The notes under the pieces were generated by a model. That model was not told where the DNA came from and made no database searches. It saw nothing but the letters and a program-made list of their open reading frames with translations. A stretch of DNA of 64,000 nucleotides, taken from positions 1 to 64,000 of the IMG/VR virus record IMGVR_UViG_3300013006_000020; one strand, 5' to 3'. The translations under genes were made by a program, and so were the position numbers. Positions 1-49,560 of the stretch are shown here, piece by piece. This stretch comes from a virus. Position 1 is the stretch's first letter. Each line of letters opens with the position of its first letter.

Positions 1-251
1 CCCGTGAACGGCTCCACCCTCACACAGGACGGCATGTTCTCGAGCATGGTCAGCAACTTCGTCAGCCCGCCCGTGGTCAGGAACTCCGGCACCTCATCCG
101 CCGAAGGCTGCACGTACGTCAGATCCTTCGACACCGTATAGAACACCTGACGCGGCCCCATCACCATCACCTTGCAGGCATTCCAGGACGGAACAACCCG
201 CACACTCCAACCGTTGACCCAAGAGAACGTCGTCTCATTGCTGATGTTCAT
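1..251 (-). CDS. Partial hypothetical protein of the GC-rich segment
   Basis: An open frame runs from an ATG at 251 off the left edge, 83 codons without a stop. I do not recognise the protein. It is not obviously membrane-bound and contains several Trp, Val and Thr residues (for example FSWVNGWSVRVV near the N-terminus), which would suit a small beta-rich or DNA-contact protein, but no family can be named. Codons end mostly in G or C, unlike every gene after 2,100. A weak AAAGG lies upstream of the ATG. Coding status rests on the open frame and the coherent GC-rich codon use. Confidence 0.5.
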   Translation of the reverse strand, partial: MNISNETTFSWVNGWSVRVVPSWNACKVMVMGPRQVFYTVSKDLTYVQPSADEVPEFLTTGGLTKLLTMLENMPSCVRVEPFT

Positions 252-1465
252 GACCGTAATCCAACCTTTCTTCTATCAAGTAACAAGTAACATGAGGACT
301 TTGAAACCGCACGCTGCGGTCCCATAAGTGAATGCCCACCACAACCCTTCCGGGCTGGGCGGGACTGTGTGCCTGGACGGGGTTGACCGTCGCAGGACTT
401 GGCGCCTTCCAGGCGTGAACCCCACGCACCACGTTTCCGCGATGCGTGAGGGGGAGAACCGGGCGTGATAGCACGCTAGCCCGGTCCATCTGCAGCCATG
501 CGTGCGGCTGCGTGTTGCTGTTGTTGTTGACTCGGCTACTGCAGTAGAATCGTCCGCTTACCCCACTACTGTGTAGCCTACAGATACCGCCGTGTCATGC
601 GTGGCTGGTTGCTAGGCAACCACGCGTGATCGACTTCCTGGTGCGCATGCCGCGCGTATGCAACCCCGTAGCCGTTGGCTACCGGACATAGCGCACCGTT
701 GTCATCAGCCCTGGGGCTGACCGTCCAGCGGAGTTACCCGCTGTATTGAATCTAGGTCGTTGGCATCATCGACCGTAGCGTAACCTTGCTGACGTACTTA
801 TCAGGGTTGTCATGTACCCCGGCCTGTGGCGAACCCGCTCATGGGGAACTTCGCAGTCGCTGCATAGTTACCAAGCCGCCTGCCACGCCTGGATCCACGC
901 CGAAGCGCAGAGCCGAACGCGACCACGTACTACTACGGTAGGACTATCGCGCACCTGTCTGCCATGCAGAGGAGCAACGCGATAGCCGCCATACGGTATC
1001 TGTCGGTGGATAGCCTATAGTACCTTTCGACCGTTGACGAGCATGGCCTGGCGCTACTCGCTGTGTCGATATGGGTACTCTGATCCTAGCGCGGTCTAGC
1101 CTCCACAGGGTAGCCGCCCCGCTCCACTGTCGCATAGTGGTAGCGGACTACGAATGGTTTCGGTGCCGTGTTGGATCGGTACTTGCGTACCTTGCACCTA
1201 CCTTCACGCTCCCGCGTGAATGTCCCACCCATTCGCATCTAGGGTTCCACGGCTTCCGCGTTTCTTTCGCCTATGTCTAGGCAGCGGATCCCAGGCTAGT
1301 TCCTCTGTGCCCAGGGCGATATCGGTCTATGGCTGCCATGTTTCAGGCAACTAGTTCCGTATCACACCCTGCGGTGCGGATACTATAACCTCGTGGTTCT
1401 ATGTTCGTCCGGCTTTACGGCTAATAATATCGAACCGTCGCGTTTCCGCGGCGGTCGATTGTGGG
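252..1465. other. GC-rich non-coding stretch with many short hairpins
   Basis: About 1.2 kb without a convincing gene; the short open frames here lack ribosome sites and coherent codon use. The stretch is unusually rich in short perfect inverted repeats: GGTTGC/GCAACC at 607-621, GTAGCC/GGCTAC at 668-682, TCAGCCC/GGGCTGA at 705-720 and GGTCG/CGACC at 755-774. No tRNA cloverleaf was found. Function unknown. Confidence 0.5.
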
Positions 1466-1936
1466 TTACTTACCCTTCGGTGCGGAGTCCGCAGCGATCG
1501 CTGCGCGGATGGTACGTTCGGTCTGCGCGGACGTTTCGGGCGCGAAGACCATAGCGATCACGGATTCGAGCGTGATAGCCGCTCCGCTAGCCGTGTTCCA
1601 CACGGGACGCGAACGGTCTAGCGTAGCGACCACGCGCACTAGGGATGCCGCCCATGCTTCGGATTCCGCGAGGCGGGCTTCCGCCGCGAGTAGATCGGAT
1701 TCCGCCGCGTGACCGCGCACGAAATCCGCCGCTACGCGGCGCAGTCGATTCGCGGCAATATGCGGAACGCGACCGCTAGCCTTACGCTCAATCCATTCCG
1801 CCGCGACCGCCTTACCGAACGTACCGATGGCATTCCGCGCCTTATCGACCGTCCACGCCGTAGCCGCGTTCACGCGCGCCGTATGCATGAGGATAACGGA
1901 CGGGAGGGCAAGAACGCTGGTGGAAACCTGGGTCAT
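1466..1936 (-). CDS. Hypothetical Ala-rich helical protein of the GC-rich segment
   Basis: A 156-residue protein, start chosen at the ATG at 1936 because AGGAG lies seven bases upstream; an in-frame start further up at 1999 would place a stable hairpin inside the coding region. The sequence is Ala/Arg/Glu-rich and largely helical, with a hydrophobic N-terminus (residues about 5-20) that could be a membrane anchor, and a central AAEARLAESEAWAAS stretch that suits a coiled coil. No family recognised. Codon use is strongly GC-biased, matching the partial gene at the left edge and not the phage genes to the right. Confidence 0.5.
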   Translation of the reverse strand: MTQVSTSVLALPSVILMHTARVNAATAWTVDKARNAIGTFGKAVAAEWIERKASGRVPHIAANRLRRVAADFVRGHAAESDLLAAEARLAESEAWAASLVRVVATLDRSRPVWNTASGAAITLESVIAMVFAPETSAQTERTIRAAIAADSAPKGK

Positions 1937-1994
1937 GACATAACTCCTGGCGCTGCGCGCCGTAGGTGGGTGATTTGTCCCGCCACACGGCGGG
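1937..1994 (-). promoter_or_regulatory. Paired hairpins flanking a ribosome binding site
   Basis: Upstream of the gene that starts at 1936, reading the minus strand, there is a CCCGCC/GGCGGG hairpin (1979-1994, loop of four), then GGCGC/GCGCC (1949-1961) abutting the AGGAG ribosome site at 1944-1948. The placement would suit translational control of the gene, but this is inference from position only. Confidence 0.35.
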
Positions 1995-1999
1995 AACAC

Positions 2000-2115
2000 C
2001 TATGGGGGCGCCGGAGGGCGGGGGAGTCCACCCAATTTCACAGCTCAAAAAATCAATATGAGGACTTATAACACGAGCGTATCGCTATCGAAAAGACGAA
2101 GGCGCCACTTCTAAA
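2000..2115. other. Junction between GC-rich and AT-rich DNA
   Basis: Base composition switches near 2,040-2,060: the left side is full of GGGCG-type runs, the right side of A/T runs. The 10-mer ATGAGGACTT at 2058-2067 also occurs at 292-301. No gene, attachment-site duplication or insertion-sequence end was recognised here. Confidence 0.45.
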
Positions 2116-2642: not shown

Positions 2643-2649
2643 ATTATAG
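2643..2649 (-). promoter_or_regulatory. CTATAAT promoter of the HNH gene
   Basis: CTATAAT read on the minus strand, 12 bases before the GTG at 2637. It overlaps the stop codon of the upstream gene. Confidence 0.4.
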
Positions 2650-3672
2650 GAGGAATGGAGGCCTAGGAAAATTATCTAGTTGCGGTCTAGTAAAACAATG
2701 TCCGCAATAACTCTTTACCCATTCAAATCCAGCCATCACTAATACTGTCACTTTTTGAATTTCTGTTTTTCCCTCAAATTTTGTTTTATTCTTTGGGTTT
2801 TGCAGATAATTTTCTAAATATTTAGCAAGACTCTCACGCCATGATGGATTAAAAATTCTAAGATCATTTAGACATTGTATTTCGCATTTTCCAAGTAGCC
2901 CCGATATTATATCAACTGCTTTACTAACCATTGATATATTTTCCGCAGCATAAAAATTTGGATCTTCATACCATCTATCCATTTTTTTTGCCATAGAAGG
3001 CTGTAAATTGTTAAAACATCCTGTGCAATTTTCTTTTAGCCAATTAATTATTTGCGCATGCGTCAAAGCGCTAATTTCTAAATTATTTGGTTGGGCGTTG
3101 TTATTGGGCTGCAATAAAAATAAACTATCCAAAACTGATGTTTTTAAAGTCTCCTCCCAGGTTCCAAGCAAAAAGGTTTCAGACTCTAGACATTTTTTTA
3201 AGCACTCTGATTCTTTAATGATAACAGAAATATCTTTAATTATTTCGTCTATCTTCATGCTTTCCGGATTATAAAAAGACAGATCTTCGTACCACTCACC
3301 CATGGCTTTTGACACAGAAGGCTGCGCGTGTACAGCCGCTGCTAATTTATTTAAAAGTAGATCAAAAGAGTTTGCCTTTTTGCTATTGTATTTTACAAAC
3401 TTTAGGTATATGCCCCGCGCTCTTGCCTGCATTCGATCTTTTTGTACTCTAGATAAAAATTTAGCCTGTGGAATTCTCGCAATCGCGTTAAGAATGTGTG
3501 CGCGGTCAACTTTTCCGTCCGCGTCCTTGTAAGGAAAGTGACGTAGTGAACGAGGTTTGATTTTACCTTCGGAATCTTTTTTGCCACCAGCCTCTATATA
3601 AAGAAAAGCAGAGTCAGGAAGATTATTCTTGTATCGTGTGGTCCACTCGGCGCCTTGGGAAAAGTTTTCCAT
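2644..3672 (-). CDS. Phage protein with DUF6582-like N-terminal domain
   Basis: 342 residues. Residues about 12-95 carry a pattern I associate with DUF6582: LPDSAFLYIEAGGKKD, then KPRSLRHFPYKDADGKVD and ILNAIARIPQAK, followed by an Arg-rich helix. In other phages this domain is seen near head-maturation genes, often attached to the prohead protease, and its biochemical role is unknown. The remaining ~240 residues are helical with scattered Cys and contain two similar units (SMAKKMDRWYEDPNFYAAE resembles SKAMGEWYEDLSFYNPE), so an internal duplication is likely. A GTGTAT motif 14 bases upstream of the ATG suggests late, possibly leaderless, expression. Confidence 0.55.
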   Translation of the reverse strand: MENFSQGAEWTTRYKNNLPDSAFLYIEAGGKKDSEGKIKPRSLRHFPYKDADGKVDRAHILNAIARIPQAKFLSRVQKDRMQARARGIYLKFVKYNSKKANSFDLLLNKLAAAVHAQPSVSKAMGEWYEDLSFYNPESMKIDEIIKDISVIIKESECLKKCLESETFLLGTWEETLKTSVLDSLFLLQPNNNAQPNNLEISALTHAQIINWLKENCTGCFNNLQPSMAKKMDRWYEDPNFYAAENISMVSKAVDIISGLLGKCEIQCLNDLRIFNPSWRESLAKYLENYLQNPKNKTKFEGKTEIQKVTVLVMAGFEWVKSYCGHCFTRPQLDNFPRPPFLL

Positions 3673-3698: not shown

Positions 3699-4523
3699 TT
3701 ATACCTCAATACCCATTGATCGTAGCTCTTCTTTGGTTGGCGGTTTCTGACCAAGAAGAACAAAACCAGCTATAAGAATAGCTAAAATAGGACCGGTAAC
3801 AGGTGCGCTAGTTCCGCCACTAGCGATGGTTATGCCTAGCGCTGCAAGCATCGCTATAATGAGCGCGCCTCGCAAATCAACCGATGCAAGTCCCTGTGAA
3901 AGAACAGCAGATCCAGCTTGTAACACAGACGAAACCTTCTCAAATTCAGCCATTATTACCGTAACTAGTGTTGCTGCTTCTTCTTCAGTCATTTGGGCTA
4001 TTGTTGAACAAAAAGCGTTTGTGTTGCTTCGTCCGCCCATTAGCAGATCGCTTAAAAATTGACTAAATTGTGGACTATTAAATACAGAACGATTAAATGA
4101 ATAAAATGTTTCACCTAAAATAAAACCAAGCTTGCCAATAATTTGTTGAACTAATATTTGAACGAGTGCTGGGTTTGCTAAAAACTGGTTAGCTACGCCT
4201 ATCTGCAAAAGTGTGTCAATTATGCTTTTTATAAAAGCGCACAGCATCTTAAAGAAATCAAGCCAACTCGCTACAGATCCAGCTCTAATCATTGATATTG
4301 CAAGTTCGCCTAGTTTGGTTACTATCATACCAATAACAACAACAGACGTTATTGCACCGCCACCAGCAGTAAAGCATGAATTTACTGAAGTCAATAATTC
4401 TTTAATTGTTTTTGCTAGGTTAAGTTCAGGACATTGGGCCTTTTCTTTTATGCCCTCATTTTCAACAGTTAAAAGCTCAACCTGTCTATTCATTGCCTTG
4501 ATAAATAATTCGTATCTATTCAC
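3699..4523 (-). CDS. Leader-tagged membrane protein
   Basis: 274 residues, GTG start. The N-terminus MNRYELFIKAMNRQVELL is a short amphipathic helix of the type shared by many proteins in this phage. Hydrophobic segments follow at roughly 56-80 (AITSVVVIGMIVTKLGELA), 85-115, and a long Gly/Ala-rich pair near the C-terminus (ALIIAMLAALGITIASGG and ILAILIAGFVLLG). No known family. The design, a leader helix plus a late hydrophobic hairpin, matches the two proteins at 61.5-63.3 kb. Membrane insertion at infection or lysis is possible but unproven. Confidence 0.6.
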   Translation of the reverse strand: MNRYELFIKAMNRQVELLTVENEGIKEKAQCPELNLAKTIKELLTSVNSCFTAGGGAITSVVVIGMIVTKLGELAISMIRAGSVASWLDFFKMLCAFIKSIIDTLLQIGVANQFLANPALVQILVQQIIGKLGFILGETFYSFNRSVFNSPQFSQFLSDLLMGGRSNTNAFCSTIAQMTEEEAATLVTVIMAEFEKVSSVLQAGSAVLSQGLASVDLRGALIIAMLAALGITIASGGTSAPVTGPILAILIAGFVLLGQKPPTKEELRSMGIEV

Positions 4524-4576: not shown

Positions 4577-5266
4577 ATGAACAGTCTCAAAGCTAAAATA
4601 GAAGTTTTAAGAGTTGCTGTGAGTGCAGCACCACCACCATCAACACCTGTTAGATGTAAAGATATAGTAGCAAAATGGGCAAATATAAGAGCAAAAATAA
4701 ATCAGGCTTACGAGGCTGGTGTAAGCCAAGTTAATGGTTTAACTTTTAACACTCTTGGTAATGTTTGGACTTTTGAGACGTGGAATGATCAAAACGGAAA
4801 TCCCTTTCCACCAGAGCTTTTTAAGTTTGATCTTTCAAATCCTTATACCCCATCAAACAACTACCCGCCAGCTGCTGCAGCCGTACAGGTTGCTCCACAA
4901 ATTGGTCCAGCTTTAGAAAATGAAGCTAATGTTGCAAAAGAAAAACTATTACAGTGCATTAGAGAGATGCGAAAATGCGCAATTACACGGGGTTATAAAG
5001 ACCAAAGAAGTGGAAAATATATTCGTGGAAAATGGGATATGCTTTACGCGGCAGCTGTTGGTGAAGCAATAGAATTGGCACGAAAAGCGTGCGAGCCTTA
5101 CGCCTCCGCTGGTGGAATGAGTAGACCTACTACATCTCAAAAGAGGGATTTTTTCAAAGCTCAAATGACATCTATTTTAGACGGAGTAAGATCAGCTCTT
5201 GGGCCACCGTGTAAGCCATGTATTAAAACTCCAGCACCAGCACAAACAGCTCCAGCAACACCATAA
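4577..5266 (+). CDS. Leader-tagged hypothetical protein
   Basis: 229 residues from the ATG at 4577; the in-frame GTG at 4559 belongs to the promoter motif. The N-terminus MNSLKAKIEVLRVAVSAA is the short amphipathic leader, followed by a Pro-rich linker (PPPSTP). The body has paired Cys (LLQCIREMRKCAITRGYKD, then KACEP) and ends in CKPCIKTPAPAQTAP. No enzyme motif is visible. It starts a plus-strand run of leader-tagged genes through 9.3 kb. Likely a virion or infection-stage protein, by context only. Confidence 0.6.
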   Translation: MNSLKAKIEVLRVAVSAAPPPSTPVRCKDIVAKWANIRAKINQAYEAGVSQVNGLTFNTLGNVWTFETWNDQNGNPFPPELFKFDLSNPYTPSNNYPPAAAAVQVAPQIGPALENEANVAKEKLLQCIREMRKCAITRGYKDQRSGKYIRGKWDMLYAAAVGEAIELARKACEPYASAGGMSRPTTSQKRDFFKAQMTSILDGVRSALGPPCKPCIKTPAPAQTAPATP

Positions 5267-5287: not shown

Positions 5288-5917
5288 ATGAACCCTATTG
5301 ATAAATTAAAATTTGTATTAGCAAAAGAGCCAACAGACTGCACTAAGATAACCGCTAAATATGCAAAAAAAATAGCAGCTGCTAATTCTTGCAAAACGGC
5401 TGGATTTAGAGCGGCAGATAATATTACTTGGATAAATAACAATAGACCTGATGATGGAATGACTAATTTTAGTTGGACCTGGGAGCGATGTGCTCCAGAA
5501 GGAGAGACTTCTTTTTTTCCTGAGGGTAATAAAAATCCTTTAAGGGGTGGCGCTAGTAGCCCAAACCAAGACGGTGGTGGTGGATCTATGAGACCGCCAC
5601 GTGGTCGTGGTGCTGTTATGCCAGCAGTTTTGACCCCGGGCTTAATGGATCCTTCAATGGGGCCTCCATCAAATCAAGATCGTCTTGATGCACGGCAAAG
5701 TGAAGAAAAATGCAAAATTTTGCTAAAGCACAACCAGATTCTTTATTCCCTAGCTGTAGAAAAAGAAAATGAACTTTACGCTGGCGGTTGCTCTCCGTAT
5801 CAAACAAATGTCGGCACAAGAAAAGAGTTGTTGGAGAAGAAAAAGGCGGACCTTGAAGCAAAATTTCTTAAAAACCAATCTGTAATAAATGGAAAAAAAC
5901 CATGCAAAAAAACTTAA
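5288..5917 (+). CDS. Leader-tagged hypothetical protein, Pro/Gly-rich middle
   Basis: 209 residues beginning MNPIDKLKFVLAKEPTDC, another leader helix. A Cys-containing helical region (ITAKYAKKIAAANSCKT) is followed by a low-complexity Gly/Pro/Arg stretch at about 95-135 (for example GGGGSMRPPRGRGAV) and a charged helical C-terminus (KELLEKKKADLEAKF). No family recognised. It lies 21 bases after the previous gene and overlaps the next by 16 bases, so it is co-transcribed with both. Confidence 0.6.
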   Translation: MNPIDKLKFVLAKEPTDCTKITAKYAKKIAAANSCKTAGFRAADNITWINNNRPDDGMTNFSWTWERCAPEGETSFFPEGNKNPLRGGASSPNQDGGGGSMRPPRGRGAVMPAVLTPGLMDPSMGPPSNQDRLDARQSEEKCKILLKHNQILYSLAVEKENELYAGGCSPYQTNVGTRKELLEKKKADLEAKFLKNQSVINGKKPCKKT

Positions 5918-6348
5918 TTATTGCAATTGCTAAGCTCGCAACAGCTGTAAGAGAAAATTACGCTGTGGTCCCTTGCACACTAATGAAAATTAGCCCCTCC
6001 AAAAGAGCATTACGCTGCAATTGGAAACCAACAGATATATCAAAGATTGCTTCTGATATAGCAACAAAGGCTAAAACTCAACAATTGTCTTCTGAGTGTG
6101 TTGAGCAAATAGTTCGATCATTTTCAGATACTTTTAATATGAAGTGTGGCAACATGGGAAAAGGTATGTACTCTGGCGCCTATCAGGCTCTTAGATCTGA
6201 TCTTATTAGACGTGGTATAATTAAAACAACAACCAAGACTAGCAAACCAGCACCAAAACCAAATTATAATAAACCATCGGTGCTTGTACCAGACTCGCCA
6301 AGACCATACGAGACAATACGAATGGCAAATGTTGACATAACTAAATAA
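5902..6348 (+). CDS. Leader-tagged hypothetical protein
   Basis: 148 residues starting MQKNLIIAIAKLATAVRENY, again an amphipathic leader. The body has four well-spaced Cys and a helical core (SECVEQIVRSFSDTFNMKCG), then a Pro/Lys tail. It overlaps the end of the preceding frame by 16 bases, which suggests translational coupling. Unknown function. Confidence 0.6.
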   Translation: MQKNLIIAIAKLATAVRENYAVVPCTLMKISPSKRALRCNWKPTDISKIASDIATKAKTQQLSSECVEQIVRSFSDTFNMKCGNMGKGMYSGAYQALRSDLIRRGIIKTTTKTSKPAPKPNYNKPSVLVPDSPRPYETIRMANVDITK

Positions 6349-6351
6349 CAG

Positions 6352-6357
6352 GTGTAT
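6352..6357 (+). promoter_or_regulatory. GTGTAT late-promoter motif
   Basis: GTGTATAATAAA, 29 bases before the ATG at 6381. Confidence 0.5.
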
Positions 6358-6380
6358 AATAAAAAAGGATATATAATTAT

Positions 6381-6710
6381 ATGTCGCTAGAAAATACTAT
6401 AAATCGTTTAACACAAGTAATTAAAGCGGCTAATAGTCGTATGTCAGCGCCAACTAGTCCTTGGTTACCTGGCGACGACCAATTTCCTCGCGATAACAGC
6501 GGAACTTCCAAATGCGCGGGTGTAAGAGCACAAATTACTAGTAATCCTAATATAAGAATATTGGGCTGTCTTGAAGAGACTGGTCGCACTCCCGGTTGCC
6601 AATGCACTACTTATCAAAGAGCCGCTCCTGGTGGCGCTATTTCTACAAGCGGACCAGTAGCAGTTCCATGTAGATGGAGTGAATGCATAACACAGCCTGT
6701 TATGTTTTAA
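6381..6710 (+). CDS. Cassette protein 1: leader plus Cys module
   Basis: 109 residues, the most divergent of five tandem paralogues. The leader is MSLENTINRLTQVIKAA. After a Pro/Gly linker comes a Cys module of the form C..C-x-C..GP..C (CLEETGRTPGCQC, then SGPVAVPC). There is no signal peptide or membrane segment. Each of the first three copies has its own GTGTAT motif. The conserved leader with a freely varying remainder suggests that the leader is the addressed part and the Cys-rich part is the cargo. Confidence 0.65.
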   Translation: MSLENTINRLTQVIKAANSRMSAPTSPWLPGDDQFPRDNSGTSKCAGVRAQITSNPNIRILGCLEETGRTPGCQCTTYQRAAPGGAISTSGPVAVPCRWSECITQPVMF

Positions 6711-6716
6711 TAATTA

Positions 6717-6722
6717 GTGTAT
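6717..6722 (+). promoter_or_regulatory. GTGTAT late-promoter motif
   Basis: GTGTATAAAAAA, 24 bases before the ATG at 6741, with AAGGA seven bases before the start codon. Confidence 0.5.
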
Positions 6723-6740
6723 AAAAAATAAGGAATAACC

Positions 6741-7010
6741 ATGTCACTAGAAAAATCAATTCAAAAACTTACAAATGCAATTACTGCTGCAAAAATGGCC
6801 CCATCTGTAATGACAGATCCATCTATAGAGCCAATACGAAATCCACCTTTAAAAGTAGTCTGCAAAACGGAATGGGAAGGTATGTGGCCAAACGTCACAG
6901 CAAAATGCGTTTGCAGATTTGGCAAGGATTGCATTGTGGAATCTATGTCAGGACCATGCCTAATAGAAAATTTCAGAACAAATGTCCCCATGGGAACTCC
7001 ATGTCAATAA
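6741..7010 (+). CDS. Cassette protein 2: leader plus Cys module
   Basis: 89 residues. The leader MSLEKSIQKLTNAITAA is nearly identical to that of the next three copies. The single Cys module reads VVCKTEWEG, AKCVCRFGKDC and SGPC, the same C..C-x-C..GP-x-C order as its neighbours with different residues between. It lacks the C-terminal module of copies 3-5. No enzymatic motif. Confidence 0.65.
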   Translation: MSLEKSIQKLTNAITAAKMAPSVMTDPSIEPIRNPPLKVVCKTEWEGMWPNVTAKCVCRFGKDCIVESMSGPCLIENFRTNVPMGTPCQ

Positions 7011-7036
7011 TAATGTAATTAGAAATATTTTAAAAC

Positions 7037-7065
7037 AGCCCTCCTTAACAGGGGGGTTATTTTTT
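7037..7065 (+). terminator. Intrinsic terminator, cassette copy A
   Basis: GCCCTCC, loop TTAACA, GGGGGGT and then TTATTTTTT. It is followed immediately by a GTGTAT motif, so terminator and promoter form one unit that is repeated at 7575 and 8417. Confidence 0.7.
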
Positions 7066-7071
7066 GTGTAT
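7066..7071 (+). promoter_or_regulatory. GTGTAT late-promoter motif
   Basis: GTGTATAATAAATAAG, 28 bases before the ATG at 7094, directly after the T-run of the terminator. Confidence 0.5.
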
Positions 7072-7093
7072 AATAAATAAGAAAAAACCCATT

Positions 7094-7549
7094 ATGTCTT
7101 TAGAAAAATCAATTCAAAAACTAACTCAAGTAATTCAAGCGGCTAAGCAGTTGGGATGCGTTGGTCGTGAGCGTTGCACAACAATGCCAAGAGGAGGTCA
7201 AATAGTTTGTGAGTGCCAAGAACTTAACGCAGACTGCAGTGTTAAGACCAATGGGCGAGTAACAATCACCCCAGGCGAATGCGCAACACAAGGTGACCGT
7301 CCGATGCAAACTCCACGAGTTCCAGTAGCTCCACGGGGTCCAGCAGAGACTGTCGGTCCACCAGCTCCAACTGAAGATTATCCACAGTTTTCGACTTGCT
7401 GGTGGGCGCGCCAAAGGATGATAGAAAATCCAAATTCTATGTCGGATGTCTGTTTTGATGCACGTACACCTGTTCCACATACAAGAATTGAGTTCTATAG
7501 AGATACCCCTGGTGGCCCAATCAAGACCCGGTCAAGCCGGTCGGACTAA
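7094..7549 (+). CDS. Cassette protein 3: leader plus two Cys modules
   Basis: 151 residues from the ATG at 7094; an upstream in-frame start would include the promoter. Order: leader MSLEKSIQKLTQVIQAA; module A (ERCTTMPRGGQIVCECQ to TPGEC); a Pro-rich linker of about 30 residues; module B (CWWARQRMIENP to EFYRDTPGGPIKTR). Modules A and B both recur in the protein at 7927, and B alone at 7632, so the set evolves by module exchange. No catalytic motif is seen; disulfide-stabilised binding domains are one possibility. Confidence 0.65.
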   Translation: MSLEKSIQKLTQVIQAAKQLGCVGRERCTTMPRGGQIVCECQELNADCSVKTNGRVTITPGECATQGDRPMQTPRVPVAPRGPAETVGPPAPTEDYPQFSTCWWARQRMIENPNSMSDVCFDARTPVPHTRIEFYRDTPGGPIKTRSSRSD

Positions 7550-7574
7550 CATCACTAGAAAAAGCAATTAAAAT

Positions 7575-7603
7575 AGCCCTCCTTAACAGGGGGGTTATTT
7601 TTT
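7575..7603 (+). terminator. Intrinsic terminator, cassette copy B
   Basis: Near-identical to the copy at 7037: AGCCCTCC, TTAACA loop, GGGGGGTT and a T-run, followed at once by GTGTAT. Confidence 0.7.
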
Positions 7604-7609
7604 GTGTAT
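7604..7609 (+). promoter_or_regulatory. GTGTAT late-promoter motif
   Basis: GTGTATAATAAATAAG, 28 bases before the ATG at 7632, identical in layout to the copy at 7066. Confidence 0.5.
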
Positions 7610-7631
7610 AATAAATAAGAAGAAACCCATT

Positions 7632-7916
7632 ATGTCGTTAGAAAAATCAATTCAAAAATTAACTCAAGTAATTCAAGCGGCTCAGCTAGGAAGCCAAGAA
7701 CCTACGCAAAATATTAAAAGGCGTGGTGATATGCTGTATGACGATATTAGAGATCTTCCAAAAAATAGATTTGGTCAATCTAGTAAGGATTGCTACAATG
7801 CGCTCAAATATCTAGAACAAGATCCATTTGCGTTGGAGAGCTGCTGTACTGATTCAGAGTTACCTGTTTGCTACTATAGAAATGAAAGGGATGGCGAAAT
7901 TTTTGTTCGTCACTAA
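7632..7916 (+). CDS. Cassette protein 4: leader plus module B only
   Basis: 94 residues, start at the ATG at 7632 by comparison with its paralogues. The leader MSLEKSIQKLTQVIQAA is identical to copies 3 and 5, but module A and the Pro-rich linker are absent. Module B is present as DCYNALKYLEQDP to ESCCTDSELPVCYYRN, matching YYRNTPGGPI in copy 5. It ends ten bases before the next cassette and shares its transcript. Confidence 0.65.
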   Translation: MSLEKSIQKLTQVIQAAQLGSQEPTQNIKRRGDMLYDDIRDLPKNRFGQSSKDCYNALKYLEQDPFALESCCTDSELPVCYYRNERDGEIFVRH

Positions 7917-7926
7917 AAAACCCATT

Positions 7927-8391
7927 ATGTCTTTAGAAAAATCAATTCAAAAGTTAACCCAGGTAATTCAAGCGGCTCAGCTATACTCAGCACAGGCAAT
8001 AGTTGGTGGCCCCTATGCTAACAGTAGTGAGCGTTGCACAACAGAAACTAGAGGAGGCCAAAAAATGTGTGTGTGCGTGACAATTGGCGCAGACGGCCAG
8101 GTTATACTCAATGGACCAATAACAACCACCCCAGGCCCTTGTAAACCTCGTATACGACAAGTTCACGACCGAGATCCAGATTTTGTCGGCCCACCAACGC
8201 CACTTCCACCACTTCCACCAGAGCCTGTAGATGGATGGGATTGCTATTGGGCGCTCAAAGCTATGACAGACGATACAACAAAAATGGAGTCCTGCTGTTC
8301 TTTGAGACCTCCTGAAATGACAAGAATTTGCTACTATAGAAATACCCCTGGTGGCCCAATACAGAACCGGCCGGCAAACCCGGGAGGATAA
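7927..8391 (+). CDS. Cassette protein 5: leader plus two Cys modules
   Basis: 154 residues from the ATG at 7927. Leader MSLEKSIQKLTQVIQAA, module A (ERCTTETRGGQKMCVCV to TPGPC), a Pro-rich linker (PPTPLPPLPPEP) and module B (DCYWALKAMTDD to ICYYRNTPGGPI). It is the closest relative of copy 3, with most differences outside the leader. The upstream bases ACCCATTATGTC are shared with copies 3 and 4, but there is no promoter motif here, so it is read through from copy 4. Confidence 0.65.
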   Translation: MSLEKSIQKLTQVIQAAQLYSAQAIVGGPYANSSERCTTETRGGQKMCVCVTIGADGQVILNGPITTTPGPCKPRIRQVHDRDPDFVGPPTPLPPLPPEPVDGWDCYWALKAMTDDTTKMESCCSLRPPEMTRICYYRNTPGGPIQNRPANPGG

Positions 8392-8416
8392 CTTTACTAT
8401 AAAAACCAATTAAAAT

Positions 8417-8445
8417 AGCCCTCCTTAACAGGAGGGTTATTCTTT
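8417..8445 (+). terminator. Intrinsic terminator, cassette copy C
   Basis: AGCCCTCC, TTAACA loop, GGAGGGTT and a short T-run; here the stem pairs perfectly. GTGTAT follows immediately. Confidence 0.7.
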
Positions 8446-8451
8446 GTGTAT
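8446..8451 (+). promoter_or_regulatory. GTGTAT late-promoter motif
   Basis: GTGTATTAAAAAT, 13 bases before the ATG at 8459, without a ribosome site. Confidence 0.5.
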
Positions 8452-8458
8452 TAAAAAT

Positions 8459-9304
8459 ATGGATTTTTCCGCTATTAATAAACTTAATATTCTGCTTGGT
8501 ATCGCAAAGCCAGAACCAACAGTTTTTACACCATCGCCAGCCGAGCCAGCAGCAAAACCACCGAAAAAACCAAAGCCTGCACCTATTCCTTGTTTTAAGC
8601 TTAATGCATACTGGAAAAGCCTAATTGGTTTTTGGGAGGGCTATAGGCCCTATAGATATAGAGATAGCGAAGGCTATTGGACAGTAGGAGTTGGAACACT
8701 AATTGATAAAAGAAAAGTTTCAATTTCAAGAATTCAATCAAGGCTTGGTGGATATTTTACATCAGTAATGGATGGTATAAACTCCGACACTGATCCAATA
8801 ATATTTTCTGCAGGCTCTAGAAATGGAGATAGTCCAATGCCAGGAACATCTCAAGCTCCAGTATCTATTGATACTGCTTGGCAGTGGGCGGATGTAGATC
8901 TACAAAACGCATATAAGGTTATATTTAACCTTTTAGGTCCAGAAGCATGGTCAAGATTATCGTATCCAGTACAATGTGTTTTGGTTTCGCTAAGCTATCA
9001 AGCAGATATAAGAAACTTTGTTTTATTAATAGCAGCCTTAAAACAACAGCCACCAGACTATGTAGAAGCGGCAAACCAAATGAAAAGATCAACTTGGTAT
9101 AGTCAAACACAAAGTGACAGAAAAGAACCAATGATTGCGATAATGAAATCAGGAGGTTCGTATACACCAACAACGATTGGCACATTTACAGCATCAAATC
9201 CAGAAACAGCAAGAACAAATCCATGTAATTTAAATTCTTCAACAAATCCAGAAAGTTTACCAAATTGGCCATCTACACCTCAAGAAACATTGATCTTGGA
9301 TTAA
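8459..9304 (+). CDS. Leader-tagged T4-type lysozyme (GH24-like)
   Basis: 281 residues from the ATG at 8459. Order: leader MDFSAINKLNILLGIAK; a Pro/Lys linker (about 18-45); a lysozyme domain opening LIGFWEGYRPYRYRDSEG. Glu60, Asp69 and Thr75 keep the spacing of the catalytic Glu11, Asp20 and Thr26 of T4 lysozyme, so muramidase activity on peptidoglycan is expected. No signal peptide. The leader is of the kind on the neighbouring cassette proteins, so this enzyme may be carried in the virion rather than being the main endolysin. The C-terminal ~80 residues are Thr/Asn/Pro-rich. Confidence 0.8.
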   Translation: MDFSAINKLNILLGIAKPEPTVFTPSPAEPAAKPPKKPKPAPIPCFKLNAYWKSLIGFWEGYRPYRYRDSEGYWTVGVGTLIDKRKVSISRIQSRLGGYFTSVMDGINSDTDPIIFSAGSRNGDSPMPGTSQAPVSIDTAWQWADVDLQNAYKVIFNLLGPEAWSRLSYPVQCVLVSLSYQADIRNFVLLIAALKQQPPDYVEAANQMKRSTWYSQTQSDRKEPMIAIMKSGGSYTPTTIGTFTASNPETARTNPCNLNSSTNPESLPNWPSTPQETLILD

Positions 9305-10992: not shown

Positions 10993-11818
10993 AGAAGCTG
11001 ATAAGGTTTATATAGAAAATAACTGTAAATATAAAACTGATGCCGAAATAGCCAAGCATATTGGCTGTTCTGTAAAAACAGTTGAGCGCTATAGAAAAAG
11101 CATTGGCATGATGAAAAACGCGACCAAAGATCCAGTTGTTATAGTTGAGGGTCGCAAAGAAAATTATAATAGAGACATATTTGACTTTCACGTTCGCTCT
11201 TTTGAAACAAGTCCGAGGGGCGGCAGAATTAAAAAACAGCTTCCGCCAGACGAATGGACTCTTTTTGCCGAAGAATGGGCAAATTATAAAATTCAGCTTG
11301 AAGATCTCACACACACAGAACAAAACACTGTTGAGCAGCTTATATTTTTAAAGCTAAGAATAGATAAAAATCAAAAAGATTATTACGAAGCCATGAGAAT
11401 ACGAGATTCTATAATGGCTGAAAATGAAATTGTTGATATTAAAGATCTTGATTTATCTGATCCAAAACAGGCAGAGCTTTATCAAAAGGTATTTAATTCT
11501 TCAATAAGGGCTACCGATCTTAACAAAGAGTATAAAGATTTACTTGAAAAATCTACAAAATTAAATGAAACACTAAACGCCACAAGACGGCAAAGAGAAG
11601 AAAAGGGTAAGGTTGGTGGAGATACGTTTTTTTCTCTTTGCAAAAAGTTTGAATCAATGCAAACACGAGAAAAAGAAGGCCGTATGGCGGAACTGCTTCG
11701 TCTTTCAATGGAAAAGAAACAAGACAAAATGAGAAACGCAATAGAGTTTATGGATGGAGAACTGGCTCCACAACTAATGGACTCAGAAACAGTAGCAAAG
11801 GTTAGAGATCAACAATGA
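10976..11818 (+). CDS. Probable terminase small subunit
   Basis: 280 residues. An N-terminal helix-turn-helix (residues about 15-45: KYKTDAEIAKHIGCSVKTVERY) is followed by a long charged, coiled-coil-prone region (about 85-250). A DNA-binding head with an oligomerising coiled coil upstream of the large terminase is the usual plan of small terminases, which select phage DNA for packaging. There is no direct sequence match that I can name, and three genes separate it from the large subunit. It overlaps gmd by four bases. Confidence 0.5.
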   Translation: MAKRIEEADKVYIENNCKYKTDAEIAKHIGCSVKTVERYRKSIGMMKNATKDPVVIVEGRKENYNRDIFDFHVRSFETSPRGGRIKKQLPPDEWTLFAEEWANYKIQLEDLTHTEQNTVEQLIFLKLRIDKNQKDYYEAMRIRDSIMAENEIVDIKDLDLSDPKQAELYQKVFNSSIRATDLNKEYKDLLEKSTKLNETLNATRRQREEKGKVGGDTFFSLCKKFESMQTREKEGRMAELLRLSMEKKQDKMRNAIEFMDGELAPQLMDSETVAKVRDQQ

Positions 11819-12837
11819 AAACAGCAATAGTAACAGGTTGCCCTGGACAAGACGCATCATATCTATCAGAGCTTTTACTAGAAAAGGGATATAAGGTATA
11901 TGGAATATATCGCCGTAGCTCTACTGAAAAAAACGCATCAAATATGGCAGTTGCAGAAAGACATACAGACTTTCATCAGATCAATCTTGATATAACTGAC
12001 GCTTCTGGTATCTTCAGTATTATTTCCCATATTAGACCAGACGAATATTATAATCTTGCAGCAATGTCTCATGTTGGACAAAGCTTTAAAGAGCCAATTT
12101 CCTGTGCTTACGTAAATGGAACTGCGGTTACAATCGTTCTTGAGGCAATTGCAAAACATTCGCCACACACAAGATTTTATCAGGCTTCTACATCAGAGAT
12201 GTTTGGTGGAATAACGGAAAGCCAATCGGAAACAACTTCGTTTGTCCCGAGAAGTCCATATTCTGCCGCCAAGCTGTACGCTCATAATATGGTTGATATT
12301 TATAGAAAGTCATACGGGATATATGCTTGTTGTGGCATTCTATTTAATCATGAAAGCCCTAGACGTGGTTTTGATTTTGTGACTAGAAAAATAACTAGTG
12401 GAATAGCAAGATATAAACTTGGTCTTTCTAGTCATATAGAACTTGGAAACCTTGCAGCTAAAAGAGACTGGGGGCACGCTAAAGATTATGTTAGAGCCAT
12501 GTGGATGATGTTGCAGGCTCAAGAACCAAGCGATTATGTTGTTGCGACTGGTGAAACAATTTCAATTAAAGATGCTCTTGAATATGTTTGTGGTATTGCT
12601 GGGGTTGAGCCAAATGAAGCTTGTAAAATCAACCCAGCATTTAATCGACCACTAGAGGTAAATGTACTTTGTGGAGACCCATCAAAAATTAAAAGAGAAC
12701 TAGGATGGCAACCAGAATATACCTGGCAAGACTTGCTTTACGAGATGTATCAACACGATTACAGTATTAATTACTCTCAAAGTGTATTAAATAGTAGTGG
12801 CAAAGAAAAGGTTGAGGAAACCCAGGTTCAGGCGTAG
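11815..12837 (+). CDS. gmd: GDP-mannose 4,6-dehydratase
   Basis: 340 residues, normal length for the family. Extended SDR enzyme: the NAD(P)-binding motif GCPGQDASYL (residues 8-17), the STSEMFG active-site segment (125-131), Tyr149 and Lys153 of the YxxxK pair, and the NHESPRRGFDFVTRKI signature of GDP-mannose dehydratases. It turns GDP-mannose into GDP-4-keto-6-deoxymannose, precursor of fucose, rhamnose or perosamine sugars. No partner epimerase or reductase is present in the window. It lies between terminase genes but fits functionally with the glycosyltransferases at 46-52 kb. The start overlaps the preceding stop (ATGA). Confidence 0.93.
   Translation: MKTAIVTGCPGQDASYLSELLLEKGYKVYGIYRRSSTEKNASNMAVAERHTDFHQINLDITDASGIFSIISHIRPDEYYNLAAMSHVGQSFKEPISCAYVNGTAVTIVLEAIAKHSPHTRFYQASTSEMFGGITESQSETTSFVPRSPYSAAKLYAHNMVDIYRKSYGIYACCGILFNHESPRRGFDFVTRKITSGIARYKLGLSSHIELGNLAAKRDWGHAKDYVRAMWMMLQAQEPSDYVVATGETISIKDALEYVCGIAGVEPNEACKINPAFNRPLEVNVLCGDPSKIKRELGWQPEYTWQDLLYEMYQHDYSINYSQSVLNSSGKEKVEETQVQA
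12782..12787 (+). promoter_or_regulatory. GTGTAT motif inside the end of gmd
   Basis: GTGTATTAAATAG, 15 bases before the GTG start at 12797, inside the last codons of gmd. Confidence 0.4.
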
Positions 12838-19038: not shown

Positions 19039-20973
19039 ATGAAGGTCTTTGAAGGCGAAAAAGAAATAGCGTCACTTGTAGCTAACAATAAAACAAAGTG
19101 CGATTCTACTTTGGTTACTGATATTTCAGTAAAAACAGATTCGCTAAATAATGTCTGCAAAGGGAATGCATGCGCAATTGCCTCTATTGCACCCAATGGA
19201 TACAAGCCAACGGATGATGTAACCACATTATCCTCAATACTTGTAAGTGATATATGGAATGCAAATGATGATGTCTTCACCTCAGAAGAAATTCTTTCTA
19301 GATACTCTACCGCAAAATTTAAACCAATAAACTGGATGCATAAGGGTTCTGAAGACACCGAAAATGAAAATATCGGCGTCATGCTTGAGACTACCCTAGT
19401 CGAGGGTGATGTCCCTGAAGTTAATATAATTAAAGCCGAAGACGCTTCTTGCAGCGATCCTAGAGCGTGCAGTGGAAAAATACACGTTAAACAAGACGGT
19501 ATTATTTGGTCTGGTTATTTCCCAACCTATGCACAAAAAATCAAAAAAGGAATTCAAGACGGTAAGCTTTTCGTTTCAATGGAATGTTTCTTTGAAGATT
19601 TTGGTTATGCCTTAAGAAATAGCGAAGATTCTGAAATTATATTCCTTGACAGAACTGATGCAAACTCAAAGATGTCAAAGGATCTTATTGCTTTTGGCGG
19701 CAAGGGTACAACTCAATATAAAGGTCAGAAATATCAAATTGGTAGATGGCTAAAGAAAATAACTTTTTCTGGTCAGGGCGTTGTATACGAGCCAGCGAAT
19801 AAGAAAAAGAACAAAATATACAGCATAATTTTTGCTCAAACAGCACAGGATCTTATGAATGCAAATTCCCCAATCCCAACTGTTCAGGAGCCTGGGGCTA
19901 TTCTAAATCCTGCAGAGATGATGGACGATACTTCAAATGTCTCTAGAACAGACACCCCACAAGATCTCAAAAATAAAAGAGAGATGCCAACAACATATAC
20001 CGCACCATCAGACGGTTTCATGTTCTTTACAGCAAAAGAAGCTGAATCTGTTGGTAAAATTAAGCTTGGGTGTACTGGATATCACCTGTACCAAGAAGAT
20101 AGACATGGTGATAAGCCACTACTTTATTCTGCGCTGATTGCAGACCCAACAGATCTTGAAAAGCAAATGGCAATACCACAGTATCGTCCATGCGAGGACG
20201 AGCGCGAGCTTCGTTTTGTTCTTAAAGAGCTTGGTATTTCACAAGAATCAGAAACCTCTTATTATATAGACAAACCAGAGGGTGATACAGATCCTGAGAT
20301 TGATCCTGCAACTGGTCTCCCAAGGAATCCAAGTTCTGGCGCCTTTGATCCCGCAACTGGTCTTCCTACAGGTCGTTCTGATGCACCAAATCAAGGGGGT
20401 GCAATTACAACTAGATCACAGATAACAAATGTTTCAAATATAAAAAAAGAAGTGTATAAAAATAAAGAGGAAAAAATGTCCGAACAAAACATCACAGAAA
20501 ACGCCCAAATCACCGAGCTTAAAGAGCAGCTCTCATACGCAGAACAAGCAATTGTTTTGGCTACTTCACATATTGAAAATATGAACTTCAAGCTGTCAAG
20601 AATTGATGAGCTAGAGAGTTTTAAGGCGCAAGCTGAGCAAATTATTGAAGAGGCATATGATAACAAGGTGGCACAAGACAGACTCACCGAAATGCGTGAA
20701 ATTGTGGGCGAAAGCTACACAGAAGAAGATCTACCAGAGCTAAAGGCTATGTCTGAAGCGTCTTTTGCCGAACTTCGTAAGGCTGTAAGCAAAGTAAGCT
20801 CGAAGATCGAAAAAGTAATTACAGAACAAGAAATAGTAGCAAGAGCTTCTCATGCAATCTCACAAGCAAAGAAGCAACAAGCTCAAACCCCAAATTTTGT
20901 TGTAGCGACAAAGCATGAGAACAAGGCCGACGTGGCGAAAAATCTCATAGCTCATGCGCTGCGAAGAAAATAA
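19039..20973 (+). CDS. Prohead protease with C-terminal scaffold
   Basis: 644 residues. The protease part (about 1-265) has KPINWMHKG with His101 and LFVSMECFF with Ser180, which fit the His and Ser of prohead serine proteases that process head proteins. A linker follows with the repeated DPATGLP. The last ~165 residues are acidic coiled coil, as in capsid scaffolds, ending in a basic tail that could bind the capsid shell. An internal promoter motif and start at 20,476 would make the scaffold alone. It is followed by decoration and capsid genes, the usual head order. Confidence 0.82.
   Translation: MKVFEGEKEIASLVANNKTKCDSTLVTDISVKTDSLNNVCKGNACAIASIAPNGYKPTDDVTTLSSILVSDIWNANDDVFTSEEILSRYSTAKFKPINWMHKGSEDTENENIGVMLETTLVEGDVPEVNIIKAEDASCSDPRACSGKIHVKQDGIIWSGYFPTYAQKIKKGIQDGKLFVSMECFFEDFGYALRNSEDSEIIFLDRTDANSKMSKDLIAFGGKGTTQYKGQKYQIGRWLKKITFSGQGVVYEPANKKKNKIYSIIFAQTAQDLMNANSPIPTVQEPGAILNPAEMMDDTSNVSRTDTPQDLKNKREMPTTYTAPSDGFMFFTAKEAESVGKIKLGCTGYHLYQEDRHGDKPLLYSALIADPTDLEKQMAIPQYRPCEDERELRFVLKELGISQESETSYYIDKPEGDTDPEIDPATGLPRNPSSGAFDPATGLPTGRSDAPNQGGAITTRSQITNVSNIKKEVYKNKEEKMSEQNITENAQITELKEQLSYAEQAIVLATSHIENMNFKLSRIDELESFKAQAEQIIEEAYDNKVAQDRLTEMREIVGESYTEEDLPELKAMSEASFAELRKAVSKVSSKIEKVITEQEIVARASHAISQAKKQQAQTPNFVVATKHENKADVAKNLIAHALRRK
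20452..20457 (+). promoter_or_regulatory. Internal GTGTAT promoter motif inside the protease gene
   Basis: GTGTATAAAAATAAAGAGG lies within the protease reading frame, 24 bases before an in-frame ATG at 20476 that has a GAGG ribosome site. Confidence 0.55.
20476..20973 (+). CDS. Nested in-frame scaffold protein
   Basis: 165 residues identical to the C-terminus of the protease polypeptide, beginning MSEQNITENAQITELKEQL. The start is supported by GAGGAAAAA upstream and a GTGTAT motif 24 bases before it, the same layout as true late genes. The product is an acidic coiled coil with a basic C-terminus, as expected of a scaffold that fills the prohead. Lambda makes its scaffold Nu3 from inside gene C in a similar way. 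Its separate production is inferred, not shown. Confidence 0.6.
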   Translation: MSEQNITENAQITELKEQLSYAEQAIVLATSHIENMNFKLSRIDELESFKAQAEQIIEEAYDNKVAQDRLTEMREIVGESYTEEDLPELKAMSEASFAELRKAVSKVSSKIEKVITEQEIVARASHAISQAKKQQAQTPNFVVATKHENKADVAKNLIAHALRRK

Positions 20974-21633: not shown

Positions 21634-22698
21634 ATGAATAACGAAATCAAAGACAGCGTAGAAACACAAGAATTAACCGATGCAGCAAAGCAGCTGCTTT
21701 CCGATGCTGGCAGCAACGATAAGGCCGTTTCAATGAGAGCGCAAGCTCAAATTGCTAAGGGTATTGCTTCAGCCCTGAACGAGTTTAACTACTCTGAGGC
21801 TGTTGAAGGCCCAATCAGAGAGGGTATACTCAAGGGCGACGTTGTTTCTGATATCTTCGTTACCGAAGACTTCAGCACCACCAATGACCTTAGAATCCCA
21901 CTCGACCTTCTTGCTCCAGGCACAGAGAAGGATCACGTTGCCTACGTCATTCCAGACCACGGCAAGATCCCAATGCGTAGAGTTGAGGCTGATTACATTC
22001 AATTGAACACCTACATGATAGGCAGCTCAATTGACTGCACTAGAAAGTTCCTCAAGAATGCTAGATTCGATGTTCTTCGTAGAATGATCGAAGTTCTCAA
22101 CATGTCCTTCGTTAAGAAGAACAACGACGACGGCTGGCAGACTCTTCTTGCCGCTGCCTACGGTCGTGGTATCGCCGCTTATGACGCTGACGCTCCAGCG
22201 GGTTCTTTCACCCCCAAGCTCGTTAGCCTCATGAAGACTATAGTTCGTAGAAACGGTGGTGGTAACTCCACTAGCACTAATCGTCGTAAGCTCACCGATC
22301 TTTACATGTCTCCAGAGGCATTTGAAGACATGAGCGCGTGGGGTCTGAGCTTGGTTTCTGACGACATCAGAAGCTCCATCCAAAGAAGCGAAGAAGGCGC
22401 AGTCCGTGGTATGTATGGCGTAAACTTCCATGATCTTGATGAGCTTGGTGTTGGTCAAGAGTATCAACTCTACTACGAGAGCACTCTTAGTGGCACCAAG
22501 GGTCCATCTGATGAAGAGATAGTAATCGGTCTTGACCTCACTCAGCCCGACAAGTCTTTCATCCACCCAGTGTCTCAGAAGATCGAGATCACTGAAGATG
22601 AAAACCTCCACAGACACGGCCTAGTTGGCTTCTACGGTTCTATGGAAGGTGGATGGGCTTGCCTTGACGTTCGCTACATCCTCGCTGGCTCCTTCTGA
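21634..22698 (+). CDS. Major capsid protein (HK97-fold)
   Basis: 354 residues. Features consistent with an HK97-type shell protein: an N-terminal helical arm (residues 1-60) suitable for proteolytic trimming, a segment KDHVAYVIPDHGKIPMRRVEADYIQL where the E-loop and P-domain strands are expected, and a C-terminal A-domain ending in LVGFYGSMEGGWACLDVRYILAGSF. Position after protease and decoration genes and before a strong terminator agrees. Codons shift to C-ending forms (CTC, AGC, ATC, AAG), typical of the most abundant protein. Confidence 0.85.
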   Translation: MNNEIKDSVETQELTDAAKQLLSDAGSNDKAVSMRAQAQIAKGIASALNEFNYSEAVEGPIREGILKGDVVSDIFVTEDFSTTNDLRIPLDLLAPGTEKDHVAYVIPDHGKIPMRRVEADYIQLNTYMIGSSIDCTRKFLKNARFDVLRRMIEVLNMSFVKKNNDDGWQTLLAAAYGRGIAAYDADAPAGSFTPKLVSLMKTIVRRNGGGNSTSTNRRKLTDLYMSPEAFEDMSAWGLSLVSDDIRSSIQRSEEGAVRGMYGVNFHDLDELGVGQEYQLYYESTLSGTKGPSDEEIVIGLDLTQPDKSFIHPVSQKIEITEDENLHRHGLVGFYGSMEGGWACLDVRYILAGSF

Positions 22699-44469: not shown

Positions 44470-45063
44470 ATGCAAGAAAATAAATCAATAGCTAAATTAA
44501 CAGAACTTTTAGTCCAGCAAAAACTCATAGCAAATGATGCTCAACTAGGCGTAGTTATGCCAAATCCATATGACACTCCACCTATTACTATTCCAGAAAT
44601 GGCGCCATTGTTTCCAGGAGTAAAGCCATGCGGATCTACCGAGCAAAATGATTCGTGCGCTGCCTGCGATGAGCTTGCTAGAATAACCGCTCGTATCGAA
44701 AGGGTATCAGATCCTATTGTAATAGGAAGGCTAATAAAAGCAAAAAACGCAATTGGAGATATGTGCGCTCTTATTCAGGGGTGTTCAACACAGCAAAGCG
44801 GAAATATAGCACCATATCAAGACGGTACAGTGTGTTTGTGTTCTGCATTTATGCAATTAATTACATCCTTTATAGGCACCGTTAATGCCGCTTTAGTTCA
44901 ACCTCAATGGAGTGACAAATCAAGAAAGGCATTGACAAAAACGCTTAACTCTCAAAAAGATACATTCCGCAGGACTATAACTGAATGCTATAGACGTTAT
45001 AGAATCTCAGATAATAAAACATCTCAAAATGAGATTTTAAAAATAATTAATACACACTCATGA
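44470..45063 (+). CDS. Leader-tagged Cys-rich protein
   Basis: 197 residues starting MQENKSIAKLTELLVQQKLIA, the same kind of amphipathic leader as the 6-8 kb cassettes. Eight Cys follow, in pairs (CGSTEQNDSCAACDELAR, TVCLCSAFMQL), with a helical body. It starts one base after the XhlA-like gene. Unknown function; its leader places it in the tagged-cargo set. Confidence 0.6.
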   Translation: MQENKSIAKLTELLVQQKLIANDAQLGVVMPNPYDTPPITIPEMAPLFPGVKPCGSTEQNDSCAACDELARITARIERVSDPIVIGRLIKAKNAIGDMCALIQGCSTQQSGNIAPYQDGTVCLCSAFMQLITSFIGTVNAALVQPQWSDKSRKALTKTLNSQKDTFRRTITECYRRYRISDNKTSQNEILKIINTHS

Positions 45064-48096: not shown

Positions 48097-48539
48097 GTCT
48101 TCTTTGCCTCCACGTTTAAAACCCATTGGTGCGGACCATACCATGTTTTTGTGGGTTTAAACCCTGCGACTGACAGTGCTTCTACAAAAGACTGCTTATC
48201 AAAGAAAACCAAATACCCGCTTAATATTGAATTAAAAGTGTCTCTATCTATTGTCCCAGCAGATAGCGCATTTGACATGGCCTCAATATCAATGCATTTT
48301 GCCTTTATTAAGCATTCGCTAGATGAAAAGGAAGACCATGATTTAAGTACCTCTTGGTATCCAGCTTGACTTTTTTCTAGCGCCCCTGGGTGGCAAATAA
48401 TTTCATATATTTTGTCTTCGCCACTTACACTATTAATAACGTAATCGTTAACAACGTGGTCTGTTTTGAAAGAACTATTCTTTTCAAGATTTATGTATCC
48501 GTCTAGATAGTTTTCGTTGTGATTTATGTTCAGTTTCAT
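48093..48539 (-). CDS. Degenerate methyltransferase-like protein
   Basis: 148 residues. The start MKLNINHNENYLDGYINLE matches the layout of sugar-cluster SAM methyltransferases whose first motif is usually LGCG..xLxGWxNVD; here the Gly-Cys-Gly is NHN, so SAM binding may be lost. Later YEIICHPGALEKSQ echoes the ...HVLEH motif of that family. It may be a non-catalytic relative. ATGA overlaps on both sides. Confidence 0.5.
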   Translation of the reverse strand: MKLNINHNENYLDGYINLEKNSSFKTDHVVNDYVINSVSGEDKIYEIICHPGALEKSQAGYQEVLKSWSSFSSSECLIKAKCIDIEAMSNALSAGTIDRDTFNSILSGYLVFFDKQSFVEALSVAGFKPTKTWYGPHQWVLNVEAKKT

Positions 48540-49558: not shown

Positions 49559-49560
49559 TT

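Follow-up and report, generated by a model that had tools for sequence, protein, structure and literature searches.

Results

The 64,000-nucleotide window analysed here belongs to a 121,997-base IMG/VR record (IMGVR_UViG_3300013006_000020), which probably represents a complete phage genome because its ends carry a common 123-bp direct repeat. The phage is uncultivated and long-tailed, with a long-tail gene set that includes a 1907-aa tape measure protein (Pfam PhageMin_Tail), and its large terminase is 25–29% identical to its best matches among 50,697 phage records. Relatives were retrieved by capsid and terminase protein queries; one of these, referred to below as G004, has a capsid protein that is 82% identical. 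At positions 6381–8391 of the window lies an array of five consecutive plus-strand open reading frames (ORFs) whose products start with nearly the same 17 residues, here termed the leader, as a previous sequence-only reading had described. Copy 1 (6381–6710) consists of the leader and a 92-aa Cys payload, which has orthologous counterparts in four relatives (L042, L052, L058 and L036). Copy 2 (6741–7010), whose position is hereafter called slot 2, likewise joins the leader to a Cys payload, one that gives way to unrelated payloads in L052, L058 and L036/L037, where leader and promoter are retained. Copies 3 (7094–7549) and 5 (7927–8391) both encode the leader, a module A, a linker (Pro-rich in copy 3) and a module B, and copy 4 (7632–7916) encodes the leader and module B.

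Within the window, the leader is common to proteins whose payloads are 19–40% identical. Among 14 array-type proteins from this phage and its relatives, leader residues M1, S2, L3, E4, I7, L10, T11, I14 and A17 are invariant, while the payload contains a single invariant column, P92. The leader peptides of copies 3, 4 and 5 are 100% identical (92–96% as DNA) and head payloads of 25–40% identity; the leaders of copies 1 and 2 show 59–82% identity to the others as protein and 63–76% as DNA. The leaders read MSLEKSIQKLTQVIQAA, end in VIxAA or AITAA, and by inspection are unlike what we take to be the T4 capsid targeting sequence (CTS). They exhibit heptad spacing (L3, I7, L10, I14, A17; heptad p 0.02), have a mean net charge of +1.75 and are more amphipathic than other N-termini (p 1e-6, for leaders selected by eye). 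Inspection of the sequences and their hydrophobic moments revealed neither the hydrophobic core nor the RR motif of a Sec or Tat signal. A search of 84,980 bacterial and archaeal genomes with the array leader peptide returned scattered chance matches only, and within IMG/VR the exact pattern is confined to contigs already identified as relatives; no coherent set was seen in the distantly related records G005–G007. None of the five array products matched a family in Pfam or PHROGs. The fold predicted for copy 5 comprises a leader helix, a beta module and then an alpha-beta module (pLDDT 67.5, pTM 0.34), and this model found no significant match in a viral structure library.

The sequence-only reading had also traced two exchangeable Cys modules through the payloads. 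Module B is real in copies 3, 4 and 5 (Smith–Waterman shuffle p ≤ 0.0005; profile–profile probability 98%, E 8e-14), whereas module A holds for copies 3 and 5 (shuffle p = 0.0005) but not for copies 1 and 2 (shuffle p 0.08–0.32; profile–profile probability ~1%), in which the likeness is limited to Cys spacing (C-x-C). With module A not demonstrable in the first two copies, the exchangeable modules have a narrower range than first claimed. Copy 5 looks like a mosaic of copy-4-like and copy-3-like sequence: in its B module, a copy-4-like stretch (8329–8343) is joined to a copy-3-like stretch (8342–8360), with TGCTACTATAGAAAT exact in copy 4 (7869) and copy 5 (8329) and ATACCCCTGGTGGCCCAAT exact in copy 3 (7503) and copy 5 (8342).

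The DNA that introduces the leaders is itself repeated. A 119-bp plus-strand unit composed of an intrinsic terminator hairpin, a GTGTATAATAAA promoter, the start codon and the leader occurs at copy 3 (7030–7148) and again, with 96% identity, at copy 4 (7568–7686). Its terminator–promoter part (7030–7079 and 7568–7617, respectively) is found a third time on the same strand at 8410–8459, where it precedes a lysozyme-like gene. The proposed duplication of a terminator–promoter unit therefore stands for copies 3 and 4 and extends to the lysozyme-like gene, but not to copy 5, which lies directly 3' of copy 4 and has neither terminator nor promoter of its own. A promoter is present at copies 1 and 2 as well, without the terminator of the repeat unit. 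The 119-bp repeat provides homology for recombination.

Payload exchange and selection among relatives

Related phages carry the leader too, and comparison with them reveals that divergence is not uniform along the genes. In slot 2, the homology of the window to L052 or L058 (91–92% over ~5801–6812) runs through the promoter and the copy 2 leader, breaks after the leader and restarts at 7010–7011, which is the copy 2 stop codon. L036 and L037 show a similar pattern with a third payload; relative to L036, homology breaks at 6775 and restarts at 7029. This payload-only replacement is direct evidence of cassette exchange, with the leader and the terminator–promoter DNA acting as homology arms. 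Elsewhere in the array, L042 lacks copies 3–5 and its junction falls inside the terminator–promoter unit at 8410–8459, and L052 carries the copy-4 payload immediately after slot 2. Both the number of exact-type leader genes per phage and their payloads vary among the relatives, the payload set being strongly variable even between close ones. As the mechanism of array change, cassette exchange is well supported and we regard it as highly probable.

Conservation of the leader at the DNA level, which had been proposed as well, is evident among copies 3–5 and over the whole repeat unit at copies 3 and 4, but orthologous leaders differ silently. Across five orthologous pairs, the leader has accumulated 0 nonsynonymous and 10 synonymous differences, a small count from pairs that share lineages. 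Because these leaders carry silent differences and the peptide is unchanged, the constraint acts upon the peptide, not the DNA. In the same pairs, the payload yields pN 0.076 and pS 0.071 (82.7 nonsynonymous and 22.3 synonymous substitutions by Nei–Gojobori), hence a pN/pS of 1.06 with a bootstrap range of 0.74–1.71, which is compatible with relaxed as well as diversifying payload evolution and does not separate the two. Four neighboring genes, including the terminase, have pN/pS values of 0.05–0.08.

Leader-type genes outside the array

A looser form of the leader, I-x-K-L-x-x-x-I/V-x-x-A, heads other genes, with up to 22 recognizable by eye. Judged from sequence, it may head perhaps 10–22 genes across the genome, a range given because support outside the array is graded and partly non-significant. 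A model trained on the leaders of other genomes only identified 14 genes at p < 0.02 versus 3.5 expected (1.4e-5). All of its eight top-scoring genes (p ~0.01 or less) belong to the proposed leader set; one of them, at 85523, has a relative among the training sequences. The best leave-one-out scores belong to the genes at 80942 and 44470, the lysozyme-like gene, and those at 82562 and 85523. In G004, unsupervised N-terminal similarity exceeds expectation (16 versus 7), and this relative encodes a second, separate array of three genes with diverged Cys-containing payloads (contig 32633–34188; L104:13133–14688, minus strand). Its own leader, MNNDNLKRVLNKISGADRAS, is full on two genes and shorter on the third; the starts follow MNN(D)NLKR(V/I)LNKISG and are independent in sequence of the array leader.

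Regarding their expression, GTGTAT, which we interpret as a late promoter core, occurs within 50 nt upstream of 11/22 leader genes and 9/23 virion module genes, versus 5/98 replication and early genes (p 1.6e-6). Leader genes had been picked by N-terminus rather than by promoter, but GTGTAT was first noticed on the array, which is why the count with the array collapsed (7/17, p 2e-4) and that in G004 (5/14 versus 2/51, p 0.004) matter. Since leader genes and virion genes have this late core in common, they are probably co-expressed.

Upstream of the array are three plus-strand leader-type genes, namely MNSLKAKIEVLRVAVSAAPPPSTP (4577–5266, late promoter core upstream), MNPIDKLKFVLAKEP (5288–5917) and MQKNLIIAIAKLATAVRE (5902–6348, weak by leave-one-out and stronger in orthologues), together with a minus-strand candidate (3699–4523) that has membrane-spanning segments predicted by inspection and a late promoter core upstream. 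Further plus-strand examples are a Cys-rich gene located after the tail module (44470–45063), KVIKKHLNAVAKQVVVPPQPT (55198–55896), another Cys-rich gene (55910–56482) and a gene at 60592–60873 that is preceded by the late promoter core and whose G004 counterpart is also leader-like at its start. Two minus-strand candidates, MRENDIRLFNYIAKIAARK (61493–62287; chosen by eye, with weak support) and MNNQRFIKSLNSIANNYAFAVNSPIPTV (62284–63276; late promoter core upstream), have membrane segments predicted by inspection. The minus-strand ORF at 2644–3672 contains an internal leader-like stretch, NSFDLLLNKLAAAVHAQP, following an N-terminal part that has no Pfam match and that we presume to resemble a domain occurring close to the head maturation proteases of phages.

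The leader-headed genes thus encode a lysozyme-like protein, Cys-rich proteins and predicted membrane proteins and, in relatives, a Dps-like protein. Cys content is 3.3% in leader proteins, compared to 1.85% in other proteins and 0.84% in the virion module. The leader-bearing lysozyme-like protein (8459–9304, plus strand) matches PF00959 at E 4e-4, scoring 21.2 bits against a curated Pfam cut-off of 22.3, as well as phrog_7 (PHROG endolysin, E 4e-7) and phrog_2083 (internal virion lysozyme motif, E 5e-5); its weak PHROG matches include baseplate lysozyme families. Neither Pfam Hydrolase_2 nor SLT was detected in this genome or its relatives, so for the leader hydrolase of the relatives, which has a GEA motif, a SleB-like identity is suggested by inspection. 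Ahead of the Dps-like payload of the relatives (DUF5856, E 4e-18), the leader-like start is weaker than elsewhere. This payload is related to ORF078 of the Dickeya phage LIMEstone1, whose annotation reads "confirmed structural protein" and includes a putative late promoter. In the LIMEstone1 record (L218, 5461–8336), the neighbors of this virion protein start with MKPFIQYFNEQAA, MKGFQDFLLKEA and MSKPSFLQFMQEK, N-termini that we presume to be similar to T4-type capsid targeting sequences.

Head machinery and other features of the window

The ORF at 19039–20973 (plus strand), located directly before the major capsid protein gene (21634–22698, plus strand; PHROG 2522 and Pfam Phage_capsid_4, both weak matches), is predicted to encode a prohead protease fused to a coiled-coil scaffold. 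No convincing Pfam family was found for its product, but distant phages share its conserved N-terminal domain, in which His101 and Ser180 are invariant, and its structural model (pLDDT 70.9) matches several BFVD entries annotated as prohead or capsid maturation proteases (E 2e-7 to 4e-6, probability 1.00). Coiled-coil heptads are located at residues 491–525 (window 20509–20613, p 0.0006). The a/d spacing of the leader equals that of this scaffold, which suggests that the leader could dock by a coiled coil. A P-x-P-T patch follows the leader in 6/22 leader-type genes and also occurs at residues 278–281 of the predicted protease–scaffold protein (window 19870–19881), at the boundary of its two parts; it is a possible prohead protease cutting site.

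Several other features of the window were encountered. Window positions 1–2000 have 60% GC compared to ~39% elsewhere, and GC is ~50% near 116–118 kb of the record. A nucleotide-sugar dehydratase-like gene (11815–12837) adjoins the packaging module, and glycosyltransferase-like genes form a run at 46898–52331, both identified by inspection. A probable fiber gene (57173–59026) contains 141-bp tandem repeats (57471–58191). By inspection, the DNA polymerase III alpha subunit appears to be split between two minus-strand ORFs of 514 and 627 aa (52980–54524 and 63790–65673), separated by ~9 kb, an arrangement likewise found in G001 and G004.

Discussion

The best explanation for the array, to which we assign a probability of roughly 0.6, is a capsid-targeting leader combined with recombinational exchange of payloads, such that the array proteins would constitute a set carried inside the virus particle, comparable to the T4 internal proteins though separate in origin. 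The leader would form a short amphipathic N-terminal helix of two to three heptads that acts as an address by docking late-made proteins to the head scaffold, which would leave them enclosed in the prohead, where the prohead protease may trim the leader. At infection, the enclosed proteins would exit together with the DNA. Homologous recombination between the terminator–promoter–leader repeats would swap, add or remove payloads, while the tag is kept. The payloads themselves would be small, fast-evolving Cys-rich proteins, plausibly directed against host defence or envelope targets. The sequence-only reading had envisioned a gene factory with a fixed tag and a diversified payload, and this idea has been strengthened by the payload-only swaps, by purifying selection on the leader and by the recurrence of the pattern on other late genes, even though its modules proved narrower. 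A broader version, in which a clade of large long-tailed phages unrelated to T4 independently evolved a genome-wide tag, is one that we would advance only tentatively. In this version, ~20 late proteins per genome, among them small Cys-rich effectors, membrane proteins and a lysozyme, would be head-loaded by a coiled-coil leader and delivered to the host, and recombination at the tag would reshuffle the effector slots.

Several observations weigh against capsid targeting. Its weakest links are encapsidation itself, the role of the leader as a true address being an inference, and the lysozyme-like protein considered below. The T4-type cleavage site L/I-x-E is absent at the end of the array leader, the predicted protease model had no PDB match in the fold search, and the Dps-like protein of LIMEstone1 has no leader, which would mean that this clade has put the tag on a domain that occurs in virions elsewhere. 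The leader is degenerate in genes beyond the array: a model built from the array leader only was not significant there (6 versus 3.4, p 0.13), and an unsupervised pairwise test of N-termini in this genome found no excess (14 pairs versus 13 expected). Lastly, the only peptidoglycan hydrolase detected bears the leader; since none of the two other families searched (Hydrolase_2 and SLT) was found, this protein could simply be the endolysin, for which encapsidation is unneeded.

This last observation is also part of the case for a membrane address, according to which the amphipathic helix would dock proteins at the host envelope from inside, late in infection and unpackaged, for purposes such as lysis or superinfection exclusion. 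The amphipathic character and positive mean charge of the leaders would suit such a role, as would payloads that are lysozyme-like, Cys-rich or predicted to have membrane segments. However, the invariant leader positions fit a coiled-coil heptad, a leader-like start also precedes the Dps-like DNA-binding domain of the relatives, whose family is virion-borne elsewhere, and many of the Cys-rich payloads have no evident exit from the cytoplasm; we therefore view membrane docking as unlikely. Still less probable is that the same cassette logic serves the tail or another part of the virion, such as the tube lumen or tip. The long-tail gene set with its large tape measure protein is in keeping with this, and lysozyme domains are often tail-borne, with baseplate families among the weak matches here, but the internal virion lysozyme family matches too, the leader genes lie scattered and do not form part of the tail module, and ~20 different proteins are hard to fit into a tail. 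An equally improbable scenario is that the proteins share no destination and the leader is a recombination handle or translation-start element that hitch-hikes on gene duplication. The duplicated terminator–promoter–leader DNA at copies 3 and 4 and the lack of a genome-wide excess in the unsupervised test would be expected from such an element. Its conservation should lie in the DNA, whereas orthologous leaders exhibit the opposite, changing only silently, and other late genes, like the separate G004 array, show the pattern again with no similarity in their DNA.

If capsid targeting by the leader is correct, it would provide a sequence handle for finding injected effectors in phages known only from their genomes, whose protein functions otherwise escape prediction, and each payload behind the tag would become a candidate for host takeover or counter-defence. 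Protein delivery, too, would gain a new, short packaging tag. Furthermore, the T4 strategy of a fixed tag and swappable cargo would have arisen more than once, here with a clear record of cargo exchange. As judged by its sequence, the array leader is not a member of the T4 CTS family, given that it differs from the CTS and lacks the cleavage motif.

The internal proteins of T4 provide a precedent for the packaging of small proteins (PMC3012670, PMC9026906). In the T-even phages, IPI, IPII, IPIII and Alt similarly have a short N-terminal peptide, the CTS, in common on otherwise unrelated small proteins, the payload set is highly variable between relatives, and head assembly employs a scaffold and a prohead protease (PMC3012670, PMC9026906). 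In contrast, the present leader is a 17-residue heptad-pattern peptide without an L/I-x-E motif, it resides in an unrelated phage (terminase 25–29% identical) and on Cys-rich payloads, and its role in packaging is putative. In phage P1, the N-terminal 30 residues of DarB suffice for capsid targeting, and DarB, once packaged, presumably passes into the host (PMC9024508), although DarB is a single 250-kDa protein as opposed to an array of small exchangeable payloads. Phages of the SPN3US/phiKZ type also eject many head proteins and encode a prohead protease, and SPN3US gp53 and gp54 are diverged paralogues with identical N-termini (PMC5694885). However, their propeptides mostly exceed 100 residues, their cleavage motif is known and no payload-swap array has been described for them. 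A final parallel is found in LIMEstone1 (Ackermannviridae), whose mass-spectrometry results include structural proteins clustered from ORF78 to ORF85 (PMC3296691). There, as in the relatives of the phage described here, a Dps-like protein occurs, encoded behind a putative late promoter and clustered with structural proteins of unknown function (ORF078–085), the difference being that in LIMEstone1 this virion protein is made without a leader.

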